From Bacteroidota bacterium (GTDB taxonomy: Bacteria; Bacteroidota; Bacteroidia; 2-12-FULL-35-15), in the NCBI GenBank assembly GCA_025963725.1, contig JAOQAE010000004.1, positions 431,616-495,615 of the forward strand: a DNA stretch of 64,000 nt. The letters are read 5' to 3'. The notes under the pieces are model-generated. The model was not told the origin of the DNA and searched no databases. It worked only from the letters and a program-made list of their open reading frames with translations. The position numbers were made by a program, and so were the translations under genes. Shown piece after piece: positions 29,205 to 32,202 of the stretch. Numbering within the stretch: position 1 is the first letter of the stretch; each line of letters opens with the position of its first letter.

Positions 29205-30152
29205 ATGAAACAATTGTTTTTTGCCGCGCTGGCAATGTGCATGTCTGTATGCGCTTCCGCGGCTGTAACAGACACAACCTCTACCGAAGAAATGGATTCA
29301 GTTTCCTACGATCTTGCAATGGCGAGGCTCGATAGCGCAATGAAAGCGCTTGATTATAAAACAGGTAAAATTGCTATCCAGGGCGACCTTGCAACGGTTA
29401 CGGTACCTGAAGGCTTTGGCTTTCTTGATGCGAAGGATGCCCAGTTTGTGCTTACCGACCTCTGGAATAATCCCGAAGACCATGACATTCTCGGAATGCT
29501 GGTGCCGAAAGGCGTTGACCTGCTTGCATCCGAATCGTGGGCGATCATTTACAGCTATGAGGAAGACGGGCACGTAGACGATGATGACGCGGAAGATACC
29601 GATTACGCGGAGTTGCTGGGTGACATGCAAAAGGATATATCCGCAAATAATTCGAGCCGCATTGCTGCAGGCTATTCTCCTATGGAGCTGATCGGCTGGG
29701 CAAAAACGCCGTTCTATGATAAAGCATCCCACAAGCTGCACTGGGCAAAGGAAATTAAGTTCGGCACCGATTCGCTGAATACGCTCAATTATAACATCCG
29801 TATGCTTGGCCGTAAAGGTGTTCTTGTGATGAACATTGTGTCGGGGATGGATAATATGAAAGTGGTGGAAGCGAACATCGATAAGATCCTTGCAAGCACC
29901 GATTTTACCGCAGGCAACACCTACGCTGATTTTGATTCGGACGTTGATAAGGTGGCGGAATACGGTATCGGCGGATTGATAGCCGGAGGTATTTTATTAA
30001 AGACAGGCCTGCTTGCAAAGCTCGGGATCTTTTTCCTGAAGGCCTGGAAGTTCATCGCCATAGGAGTTGTAGGGTTGGTAGCATTCCTTAAGAAAAAATT
30101 CACTGGTAAGAAAGATAATTCGGATGATAACCATCCGAGGTTAGATCAATAG
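29205..30152 (+). CDS. DUF2167 membrane protein
   Basis: A 315-aa protein with a signal peptide (MKQLFFAALAMCMSVCASA). The domain matches DUF2167: VTVPEGFGFLDAKDAQFVLTDLWNNP, GMLVPKG, WAIIYSYEEDGHVDDDDAEDTDY, GWAKTPFYDKASHKLHWAKEI, and two C-terminal hydrophobic helices (GIGGLIAGGILLKTGLLAKLGIF shortened by position, about residues 250-295) followed by a charged tail. The function of DUF2167 is unknown. The gene is monocistronic with a terminator at 30178. Confidence 0.88.
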   Translation: MKQLFFAALAMCMSVCASAAVTDTTSTEEMDSVSYDLAMARLDSAMKALDYKTGKIAIQGDLATVTVPEGFGFLDAKDAQFVLTDLWNNPEDHDILGMLVPKGVDLLASESWAIIYSYEEDGHVDDDDAEDTDYAELLGDMQKDISANNSSRIAAGYSPMELIGWAKTPFYDKASHKLHWAKEIKFGTDSLNTLNYNIRMLGRKGVLVMNIVSGMDNMKVVEANIDKILASTDFTAGNTYADFDSDVDKVAEYGIGGLIAGGILLKTGLLAKLGIFFLKAWKFIAIGVVGLVAFLKKKFTGKKDNSDDNHPRLDQ

Positions 30153-30207: not shown

Positions 30208-30249
30208 TGCCCGGATTTTTTGTGACTGGCAAATGGAAGATGCTGCTCA

Positions 30250-30316
30250 GCGATTTTCCGCCGGTAAAGGCAATAAGCCGGGCTAATTTTGGATCAGATA
30301 CTAATTTAGAAAGGAG
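30250..30316 (+). promoter_or_regulatory. Regulatory block of lipoprotein paralog 1
   Basis: GCGATTTTCC at 30250-30259, -7 box TAATTTTG at 30284-30291, and Shine-Dalgarno AAAGGAG ending at 30316, six bases before the ATG. Spacing from the first box to the -7 box is 25 bases, as for paralogs 2 and 3. Confidence 0.65.
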
Positions 30317-30322
30317 AAACAA

Positions 30323-30784
30323 ATGAAAACGAACGCAAAAAACTTAGGAATTGCATTACTTGCATCAGTAACAGTATTATTTGGCTGCAAAAAAGAGGAC
30401 ATCAGGCCAATGGCCCGTCCAACACCTGTAAGTGCAACCAGCAAGCCCATAGCAAAAGAGCTTAACTTCTGGAAGATCTCATCCTTCCAGCTGAATGGAA
30501 AATACAGCAGTGACGAGACTGTAAAGTTTGAAGGCTGGTCATTCCAGTTCAACGATGATGGAACCGTGGTGGCCAGAAAAAAAGAGGAGAAGCTAAAAGG
30601 ACACTGGGGAACCAAAATGAACGGCTCGAGGGAGATCATGGTATTTGATTTTGGCGGACAGGAGCCGTTCTATGAACTGAACAATTATTGGGAAGTTGCA
30701 AAGAAAACAACGCAGTATATGCTTCTGCAGGATCATGATGATTCGGACGGAAGCACCGGCGAGCTGATTTTTGAAAAAATGTAA
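30323..30784 (+). CDS. Lipocalin-like lipoprotein, tandem paralog 1
   Basis: A 153-aa lipoprotein starting MKTNAKNLGIALLAS with lipobox LFGC (Cys 22) followed by KKEDIRPM. After a variable linker the mature domain runs NFWKISSFQL, FEGWSFQFNDDGTVVA, LKGHWGTKMNG, IMVFDFG, LNNYWEV and a closing ELIFEKM strand. This succession (W at the start, FxFxxDGxVxA, GxW, DFG, LNxxW) is shared with the next two genes and is compatible with a small lipocalin-like barrel, though I cannot confirm the family. The signal peptides are nearly identical (MKTNxKxL). It has its own promoter block and terminator. Confidence 0.8.
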   Translation: MKTNAKNLGIALLASVTVLFGCKKEDIRPMARPTPVSATSKPIAKELNFWKISSFQLNGKYSSDETVKFEGWSFQFNDDGTVVARKKEEKLKGHWGTKMNGSREIMVFDFGGQEPFYELNNYWEVAKKTTQYMLLQDHDDSDGSTGELIFEKM

Positions 30785-30794
30785 TAAGGGAAAG

Positions 30795-30826
30795 GCCTCT
30801 TTTTGAAGATCAAAGGAGGCTTTTGC
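30795..30826 (+). terminator. Terminator after paralog 1
   Basis: Stem GCCTCTTT paired with AAAGGAGGC (one bulge), T-rich tail. Confidence 0.6.
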
Positions 30827-30874
30827 TTTATGGGCCTTGTTGCAGGATGATCGTCGTACATAAATGTTCTATCA

Positions 30875-30944
30875 ACGATTATCCAATGTGAAGAAGTAAC
30901 AAGCATAGTAATTTTGTTTAAAGTATTAACCAATTAGAAAGGAG
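30875..30944 (+). promoter_or_regulatory. Regulatory block of lipoprotein paralog 2
   Basis: ACGATTATCC at 30875-30884, TAATTTTG at 30909-30916 (25-base spacing), and AGAAAGGAG ending at 30944 before the ATG at 30953. Confidence 0.65.
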
Positions 30945-30952
30945 AACAAATA

Positions 30953-31459
30953 ATGAAAACGAACGCAAAAAGCTTAGGGATAATTTTATTTACCCTTGCA
31001 ACAGCTTTCTTTGGCTGCAAAAAAGAAGATATTTCCCCATTGCCGGGTGTTGAGCATCATAGTGCTAAGGCTGTAGATGTAACGGCGCCGGCTACCGGAA
31101 ACGAGAATAAAGGCATGTCGCAAGAGCTGGATGGCTTCTGGACGATAAGCGCATTTTACCTTGAAAGTAACAACACGAAAGGCGGCGGGCAAACACAAAA
31201 GTTTAACGATTGGCGGTTTGCATTCAACCGCGACGGACAGGTAGCTGCCTTTAAAAACGGACAGCGTGTAATGGGAAAATGGTCGAGAGGAAGTTTAAAC
31301 CTGAAAGATGACATCACGCTCGATTTCGGTTCCCAATATCCGTTCAGCCTGTTAAATAATACATGGCAGACCCAGGATAAAACAGTGCAGTGGAGGTTCC
31401 TGCAGGATAAAAACGCCGCAGACGGAACCTCCGGATACGTTGTTTTTAAGAGGTTGTAA
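30953..31459 (+). CDS. Lipocalin-like lipoprotein, tandem paralog 2
   Basis: A 168-aa lipoprotein beginning MKTNAKSLGIILFTLAT with lipobox FFGC and the same KKEDI after the Cys as paralog 1. The linker is longer and disordered (about residues 30-55). The mature domain repeats the paralog pattern: GFWTISAFYL, FNDWRFAFNRDGQVAAF, VMGKWSRG, ITLDFGSQ, LLNNTWQ and GYVVFKRL. The N-terminus is nearly identical to that of paralog 1 while the domain has diverged strongly, which points to an old duplication with a preserved signal and promoter. Substrate unknown. Confidence 0.8.
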   Translation: MKTNAKSLGIILFTLATAFFGCKKEDISPLPGVEHHSAKAVDVTAPATGNENKGMSQELDGFWTISAFYLESNNTKGGGQTQKFNDWRFAFNRDGQVAAFKNGQRVMGKWSRGSLNLKDDITLDFGSQYPFSLLNNTWQTQDKTVQWRFLQDKNAADGTSGYVVFKRL

Positions 31460-31478
31460 TAAGAAAATAGTAACAGAG

Positions 31479-31513
31479 AAACGTCTCATCCCCGCGGATC
31501 GAGACGTTTTTTA
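31479..31513 (+). terminator. Terminator after paralog 2
   Basis: Stem AAACGTCTC paired with GAGACGTTT, 13-base loop, T run. Confidence 0.85.
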
Positions 31514-31562
31514 TTGTCTGGCATTCCGTGCAAACACATTAGCGACAAGAAATGTTGCTTCA

Positions 31563-31634
31563 ACGATTATCCGCCTCTTACGGCTTTATTGTGTTGTAAT
31601 TTTGAATCAGGATATTAATTTAATTAGAAAGGAG
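31563..31634 (+). promoter_or_regulatory. Regulatory block of lipoprotein paralog 3
   Basis: ACGATTATCC at 31563-31572, TAATTTTG at 31597-31604 (25-base spacing), AGAAAGGAG ending at 31634, ATG at 31641. Confidence 0.65.
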
Positions 31635-31640
31635 AAACAA

Positions 31641-32147
31641 ATGAAAACGAATTCAAAAAAACTCGCAGTAGCATTATTAGGTGTAGCATCATTATTTGCA
31701 GCATGTAAAAAAGAAGAGATGCGCCCTATGAATATTTCAGATAAATCGCAGTTGGAGCAGCCTGATCAGCGTATGGCCCAGCCTGACCAGAATATGTTTG
31801 AGCAAACACTTTGCAGCCACCGCTGGCTGATCGGTGCTTATAATGACGGTAAGTTCCAGTCGCGTACCGACCATACGGCGATGTTCCGTGACTATGTGTT
31901 TGAGTTTAACGACAGGCATGTGGTGATCGCAAAAGGGGCTGAAAAGAACATTGTAGGTAAGTGGAATACATTTACTGTTGACGGACAGAAAAGGCTGGTG
32001 CTCGATTTTGGCTTTAGGCCATGCATTAAGCTGAATGCAAAATGGAGCCTTGTAAATTACAATTCAGGAGCAATTACGCTTCGTGACTGGGTTGGAAATG
32101 AGACTGCCGCGCTCGATTTCAAAGCCGTATATGATGTGGCAAAATAG
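31641..32147 (+). CDS. Lipocalin-like lipoprotein, tandem paralog 3
   Basis: A 168-aa lipoprotein beginning MKTNSKKLAVALLGVAS with lipobox FAAC and KKEEMRPM after the Cys, very close to RPM in paralog 1. A Gln/Asp-rich linker (QLEQPDQRMAQPDQNMFEQ) is specific to this copy. The domain keeps the family marks: HRWLIGAYNDGKF, FRDYVFEFNDRHVVIA, IVGKWNTF, LVLDFGF and LNAKWSLVN. An open frame continues upstream of the ATG across the promoter block and is not part of the gene. Function unknown. Confidence 0.8.
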   Translation: MKTNSKKLAVALLGVASLFAACKKEEMRPMNISDKSQLEQPDQRMAQPDQNMFEQTLCSHRWLIGAYNDGKFQSRTDHTAMFRDYVFEFNDRHVVIAKGAEKNIVGKWNTFTVDGQKRLVLDFGFRPCIKLNAKWSLVNYNSGAITLRDWVGNETAALDFKAVYDVAK

Positions 32148-32162
32148 TTTTAAGGGAAAACG

Positions 32163-32202
32163 AAAAAATGCCTGTTGTGCGTATGCAGAACAGGCATTTT
32201 TT
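32163..32202. terminator. Bidirectional terminator between paralog 3 and the 32233-32619 gene
   Basis: A perfect 14-base stem (AAAAAATGCCTGTT and its complement) with A and T runs on both sides. Confidence 0.85.

Follow-up and report, generated by a model that had tools for sequence, protein, structure and literature searches.

The three tandem lipoprotein genes described here raise the question of what controls them. They lie at positions 30323 to 32147 of a window of 64,000 nucleotides (the whole stretch of DNA analysed; contig JAOQAE010000004.1 of a Bacteroidota bacterium, here genome G000). A preliminary description, made from the sequence alone, had reported a short box, CGATTWTCC, at a fixed distance from a -7 box in front of each gene, together with a strong Shine-Dalgarno (SD) sequence. 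This box is the promoter-proximal half of a larger tandem direct-repeat operator with a period of 21 bp, and a response regulator with a LytTR domain is its probable reader. All window features given below lie on the forward strand.

Copies of the box were located at 30251-30259 (CGATTTTCC) and at 30876-30884 and 31564-31572 (both CGATTATCC). The -7 box TAATTTTG is identical in the three genes and occupies 30284-30291, 30909-30916 and 31597-31604. The spacing between box and -7 box is constant, as described before; the reported 25 bases hold if counted from end to start, whereas 24 bases lie between them. Pairwise comparison of these 24-nt spacers gave 6, 11 and 5 identities of 24, with about 6 expected by chance. 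Since the spacers diverged while the boxes were kept, the boxes look held by selection and not left over from a recent duplication. A search of the whole genome (4.79 Mb) for CGATTWTCC-N22-26-TANNTTTG yielded three matches, all in the window, and none for the reversed control, in agreement with the pairing reported. With up to two mismatches allowed, the pattern was found 14 times in the genome versus twice in the control, and one of the additional matches precedes a distant lipoprotein paralog (C7:1687115). The short box alone, present four times in the window versus 1.45 expected, is not significant, because 9 of 100 shuffles reached this count. The usual -33 TTG is indeed missing in all three promoters; this is weak evidence, because only 23 of 79 sampled TAnnTTTG promoters carry it. 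The box as a general promoter element was rejected: CGATT occurred at that distance in three of the 79 promoters, all of them the window's own.

The complete operator has the consensus TTYRGCTATTR-N11-TCAMCGAWWA-N26/27-TAnnTTTG. The layout of box and -7 box was revealed before unrelated genes by the mismatch scan and by R1, a sequence-only model of 11 promoters searched in 37 genomes. These genes encode a conserved 47-aa protein (three species), a hydrophilic 'NSPKDEAVVNHSD' protein (two species) and receiver-transmembrane proteins in G009. The gene of the 47-aa protein (MKKLVLLLVGA..KYFNIKS; L036, L133, L134) carries the operator in all three species; in G000, about 1 kb separates it from the LytTR gene. 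An R1 match before an ECF-type sigma gene (C3:135686 in G000) had a spacing of 33 by hand count and was dropped. In fetched DNA, 64 matches to box plus -7 box were obtained; 40 were kept as non-coding, and 19 coding and 5 non-coding ones were dropped, the latter by hand. The second half-site 21 bp upstream, unused in this selection, appeared with T at -21 in 34, R at -19 in 39, C at -17 in 36 and A at -15 in 31 of the 40 sites, with an A-tract after it. Inclusion of the five matches dropped by hand gave 36, 43, 36 and 31 of 45, while the coding matches, used as negative control, gave 8, 12, 2 and 5 of 19. Inspection by eye for a hairpin or palindrome within the operator showed a variable loop, and the idea was dropped.

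Many promoters of the lipoprotein family in related genomes keep CGAWWW-N27-TAnnTTTG. Matches to TCANCGAWWA-N27-TANNTTTG outnumbered those to the reversed pattern in G000 (12 vs 1), G018 (13 vs 0), G002 (25 vs 5), G008 (18 vs 3) and further genomes, but not in many of the 59, for example G003 (6 vs 13). A second model, R2, was built from 38 sites. In 20 stretches of fetched DNA it gave 59 sites with E<0.01, of which 10 had served for training. The distance from the half-site to the -7 box (TAnnTTT/A) was 27 bp in 27 of the 59 and 26 bp in 23; nine were not assigned. A strict N27 was thus rejected as a regulon-wide rule, with 26 bp nearly as frequent. All three window genes have 27 bp.

For gene 1 the upstream half-site CTGGCAAATG was assigned to 30226-30235, 21 bp ahead of the box, and the proximal one, TCAGCGATTT, to 30247-30256; the R2 match here (30227-30291, 23.8 bits) is a training site. 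The corresponding half-sites are TCGTCGTACA (30851-30860) and TCAACGATTA (30872-30881) for gene 2, and TTAGCGACAA (31539-31548; top 0.12% of positions) and TCAACGATTA (31560-31569) for gene 3. An independent matrix of 72 columns was derived from 35 sites in other genomes, with promoters of this lipoprotein family left out, and applied to the window together with 400 kb of this genome (925,018 positions). The whole promoters of gene 2 (23.1) and gene 3 (20.8) took ranks 1 and 2, with the next position at 14.9; because of these ranks, their predicted membership in the operator set is firm. Averaged over the three promoters, the upstream half-site scored 2.3 at the 21-bp register, -1.8 and -3.8 at the adjacent ones and at most -8.8 at the other tested registers. 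Gene 1 is likely to belong to the set by family and architecture. Its upstream half-site alone scored 1.2 (top 1.3% of positions), and slightly higher, 2.0, one register over. Three results count against the assignments: the gene 1 promoter is background with the independent matrix (8.5, rank 15), the upstream half-site of gene 2 is the weakest of the three (top 2.8% of positions), and one of 20 column-permuted matrices reached 19.7, the highest value of these trials and near the score of gene 3.

Sites of the operator were counted with R2 at E<=0.02 over 99 genomes. No more than 50 candidates were scored for each genome, and site counts may be low. Sixteen sites were found in this genome. At least 10 sites were present in 12 of the 99 genomes, namely 11 of the 36 same-genus genomes and G086 from another family; G040 had four and the other 86 had 0-2. 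Of the 59 sites with E<0.01, 58 were intergenic (15% of random windows) and 46 lay just upstream of an open reading frame (ORF) on the same strand (6% of random windows). Those genes after the sites, or homologs of them, that were checked with Pfam comprise ferritin/Dps-like, UspA, YtxH, DUF2383, VTC, STAS, receiver and hybrid histidine kinase proteins, furthermore a GT4/starch-synthase-like glycosyltransferase, a phosphoglucose-isomerase-like protein and a DksA/TraR zinc-finger protein. Other sites of G000 precede receiver-like proteins (C6:492418, C5:244596) and a signal-peptide protein (C7:860909), all named by reading. From this gene list the operator looks like the mark of a stress, storage and exopolysaccharide/envelope regulon. 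A small regulon with an activator or alternative sigma site had been proposed. An activator-type site agrees with our results; with 16 sites the regulon is not small, and the sigma site found no support.

Which protein reads the operator was approached by way of the gene clusters. A receiver-LytTR response regulator was the sole recognisable sequence-specific DNA-binding protein among the families occurring in fetched clusters of at least three genomes; the families were judged by reading, and 10 cluster proteins were checked with Pfam. In this genome the regulator, with REC and LytTR domains, is encoded at C7:682261-682956 (PF04397, E 5e-17), and a paralog at C6:125177-125875 (E 2.4e-19). Of the 12 regulon genomes, 11 carry a homolog with 63-100% identity (E<=1e-90), as does one genome outside this set, G032; among the matches listed, with the best E-value given for every genome, the best LytTR homolog of the remaining genomes was 52% identical (G004). 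Relatives of the response regulator at E<=1e-10 occur in 97 of the 99 genomes. For the co-occurrence of operator and regulator, Fisher's test gave 1e-12 over the 99 genomes and 5e-7 within the genus, both uncorrected for phylogeny. The 11 regulators and that of G032 form one clade (support 100/99) in a tree with only three outgroup rows. The operator also precedes the start codons of two LytTR paralogs, by 43 nt in G008 and 87 nt in G015. Among the 15 same-genus genomes with one or two sites, five (G004, G005, G014, G016, G034) have a site at most about 0.5 kb away from their best LytTR homolog; these five gave no sites to R2. The LytTR response regulator probably reads the operator.

In a LytTR regulatory system (LRS) in the strict sense, the operon of the LytTR regulator also encodes a membrane inhibitor. 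The downstream neighbour of the C7 regulator is a receiver-only protein; its other neighbours were read by eye. In the region L277 (C6:122500-128500), the C6 paralog adjoins genes for SiaC, DUF6272 and SpoIIAA-like (DUF7793) proteins and a MASE1-PAS gene, an arrangement that suggests a possible partner-switching input.

The mechanism we propose starts from four observations: the sequence architecture, the narrow range of its spacing, its repeated occurrence at promoters and its co-occurrence with the LytTR gene. A LytTR-type regulator, that of C7 and perhaps also that of C6, would bind both repeats as a dimer. It would sit just upstream of RNA polymerase, with the operator 27 bp (26 bp at many sites elsewhere) before the -7 box of the primary sigma factor, and activate promoters which, in the window at least, have no -33 element. 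The three lipoproteins would thereby share a regulon with the ferritin/Dps-like, UspA, YtxH and DksA/TraR-type proteins, receivers, STAS protein, hybrid kinase and glycan-synthesis genes, and the trigger may be stress or stationary phase. In a second layer, an extended SD would tie translation of the lipoproteins, which start with MKTN, to ribosomes with a free anti-SD. We regard this reading as a whole, a tandem operator with LytTR-type activation of a lipoprotein, stress, signalling and glycan regulon plus a translational layer, as probable.

Several observations do not fit it. G032 has a 63%-identical LytTR protein, yet a single site; G017, with 17 sites, has no more than a partial LytTR (49%) at the edge of a contig. 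No site was found by the R2 scan before the C7 LytTR gene, where one lone TCACCGATT was seen by eye. With two LytTR paralogs in this genome, the reader cannot be named with certainty. In G046, from another family, the simple pattern is enriched (15 vs 3), yet R2 found only 2 sites; the operator of this genome has perhaps diverged. Finally, a TAnnTTTR box within 150 nt is missing for four family members in relatives, L033, L035, L012 and L029.

Other explanations of the shared upstream region were considered. A real operator might be read by another family that binds 21-bp direct repeats, for example an AraC-type regulator. This spacing of tandem sites is also known for AraC-type sites, and the LytTR gene could co-occur with the operator by hitch-hiking with the gene cluster. 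No AraC-type protein was noticed when the conserved cluster families were read, although no profile search was made; moreover, sites stand beside the best LytTR homolog in the five genomes named above, and the closest published resemblance found is the proposed LytTR operator of Bacteroides, as given in the accessible part of that paper (PMC6193735). We therefore regard an AraC-type reader as clearly unlikely. An alternative sigma factor using the box as its -35 element would account for the missing -33 TTG and the nearly fixed spacing. At 26-27 bp, however, the distance greatly exceeds the usual -35/-10 spacings, and a second half-site follows one 21-bp period upstream. Variants of TAnnTTTG, the standard form found here, were assigned to sigma-A in the available part of a survey of F. 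psychrophilum (PMC9723704). Because the -7 box is this primary-sigma element and the remainder resembles a tandem operator, we regard an alternative sigma factor as unsupported and very improbable. That the region is a functionless remnant of tandem gene duplication would suit tandem paralogs with alignable 5' regions, but is already contradicted by the divergence of the spacers at fixed boxes and distance, and by the recurrence of this architecture in other species and in another family, at genes unrelated to these; we consider it extremely improbable. A LytTR-read operator remains our preferred explanation.

The strong SD was treated as a separate question. AGAAAGGAGA lies ahead of each ATG at 30308-30317, 30936-30945 and 31626-31635, with the end of AGGAG 6-8 nt before the ATG. 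No 16S gene was found in this genome by a search that also missed 5 of 14 control genomes; the tail was therefore taken from the 16S of the sister genome G018. Over 10-12 bases it pairs with each of the three leaders, at -17.1 kcal/mol for gene 1 (17-nt tail) and -15.4 kcal/mol for genes 2 and 3. With a 13-nt tail the pairing was as weak as -13.3 kcal/mol, and all values were below the rpsU-type threshold of -13. Among 323 ORFs sampled from 464 kb, the three genes take the first three ranks, and the SD is thus as rare and strong as had been stated. Pairing in general is not enriched in this genome (mean -3.06 versus mock -3.52 for the 323 ORFs). The pattern AGAAAGGAG-N3-9-ATG occurred 13 times in the genome and 6 times in the control; by reading, four matches stand before real genes, the three of the window and the family member C6:230866. 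In this exact search and in the ORF sample, about one tenth of the genome, a strong SD was found only before members of this lipoprotein family.

Among relatives, the SD is retained before all three cluster genes of G018, before two members in G009 (L029, L137) and, weaker (-9 to -12 kcal/mol), before all four cluster genes of G028. It is absent from L012, L034 and L130 of G009 and from C7:1687115 (L007) of this genome; because the latter has the operator without the SD, box and SD are separable. The rpsU gene, examined in this genome alone (L060, C7:1666652-1666810), has no SD at all. In G016, the operator stands before a receiver gene near the LytTR homolog (L263, C66:14435), with a strong SD in the leader (AAAAAAAGGAGG, -12.7 kcal/mol).

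The accessible parts of a study on the phylum describe a strong SD as typical of rpsU in much of it, including about half of Chitinophagales, and sequestration of the anti-SD by Bacteroidia ribosomes (PMC9976891). According to the same parts, a strong SD added to a reporter in Flavobacterium johnsoniae somewhat lowered the wild-type output, and loss or alteration of bS21 raised the output of strong-SD reporters (PMC9976891). The assumption that the genes are built for high translation does not follow, because of this lower wild-type output, and is unsupported. That the strong SD simply gives high constitutive translation is suggested by the extensive complementarity of -15 to -17 kcal/mol; it is at odds with the sequestered anti-SD, with the lack of a gain in wild-type F. 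johnsoniae (both PMC9976891, as far as available) and with the missing enrichment of SD pairing in this genome. We consider it unlikely, though not negligibly so. Conditional translation of the lipoproteins is the better guess. A strict two-layer control, in which the genes are transcribed as part of a LytTR stress/envelope regulon and no ribosomes but those with a free anti-SD (e.g. without bS21) translate them, would go further and is a rather doubtful proposal.

The lipoproteins themselves (gene 1, 30323-30784, 153 aa; gene 2, 30953-31459, 168 aa; gene 3, 31641-32147, 168 aa) are paralogs with 29-40% identity. The ORF list shows a longer TTG-started frame for gene 3 (31440-32147). Their signal peptides, reported as almost identical, are similar only, with 14, 10 and 10 shared positions among the 22 that end at the lipobox Cys. 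Pfam and NCBIfam gave no family above cut-off for any of the three. In the AlphaFold2 model of lipoprotein 1, confidence is high from about residue 50 onward, and the predicted domain is beta-rich, with nine strands of at least 3 residues; the lipocalin superfamily is characterised by an eight-stranded up-and-down barrel. Its best PDB matches by Foldseek were DUF4847, uncharacterised and lipocalin-like proteins, all of Bacteroides, at E 5e-4 to 5e-3 and TM-scores of 0.42-0.54. These matches are weak; a ligand-binding or envelope-protective role may be guessed. Each gene has its own terminator-like hairpin with a U-rich 3' arm or tail, as reported before, at 30791-30824 (z -3.4), 31478-31510 (z -5.5) and 32163-32202 (z -6.3). 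The DUF2167 protein gene directly upstream (29205-30152) is also followed by its own hairpin, and z ranges from -3.4 to -6.7 over the four. A combined sigma-70 and terminator scan gave counts at chance level; its loop and tail rules missed the hairpins of the lipoprotein genes.

A promoter with a shifted operator was seen at L191 (C7:1599231-1599275 in G000) and L190 (C18:214351 in G018). Two full half-sites lie 21 bp apart, the second 6 bp before TATATTTG. This promoter is common to both species, stands before a 261-aa secreted protein and was excluded from the operator counts. The position could indicate repression or another start site.

In the literature searched, with subscription papers mostly outside, only proposed operators of two Bacteroides operons were found for LytTR regulons and operators in this phylum. 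Within these limits the regulon is a real and previously undescribed one of the LytTR type, of which the preliminary description had seen the proximal half-site; binding by LytTR itself is predicted from sequence. Our analysis supplies an operator and a likely reader for a stress/envelope/glycan regulon in uncultured Bacteroidota, and both are jointly present or absent in most genomes.

The available part of PMC6193735 describes LytTR operators as direct repeats of 9 bp, separated by 11-13 bp and placed immediately ahead of promoters; for Bacteroides, TCCGGTATTCA-11-ACCGGAAATCA before TATCTTTG was proposed there. Like the operators of AgrA, HdrR/BrsR, the LRS promoters and the LRS-like operons of Bacteroides, ours consists of two direct repeats with a period of about 21 bp directly upstream of a promoter; it has a candidate LytTR-domain regulator and precedes two of its paralogs. 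In contrast to them, the half-sites are TTYRGCTATTR / TCAMCGAWWA instead of ACCnnTTAn, the distance to a Bacteroidota -7 box is 26-27 bp, the regulon is dispersed over about 10-33 promoters and the regulator carries a receiver domain. AMCGAWWA resembles the broad LytTR consensus ACCGACTAT by eye, without scoring; the closest is the proposed Bacteroides TCCGGTATTCA, as far as that source was available. The neighbourhood of the C6 paralog, with its SiaC, DUF6272, SpoIIAA-like and MASE1-PAS genes, is comparable to partner-switching modules of the SiaABC type; unlike these, the neighbour is a LytTR regulator, a putative effector, and a link to the C7 regulator would be conjectural. The window proteins, each with a lipobox, share the predicted small beta-rich mature domain with lipocalin-like/DUF4847 lipoproteins of Bacteroides (PDB 4zgf, 4qrl), but the low TM-scores and the lack of a family at cut-off set them apart. 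The extended SD is comparable to that of rpsU with bS21 autoregulation in F. johnsoniae, with 10-12 bp of pairing at -15 to -17 kcal/mol and no enrichment of SD in the background. Here, by contrast, it stands before lipoproteins in a genome with an SD-less rpsU. It is thus a concrete test case for the question if SD-reading ribosomes serve genes besides rpsU. If so, the lipoproteins would be a second, non-ribosomal client of such 'specialised ribosomes' in Bacteroidota.

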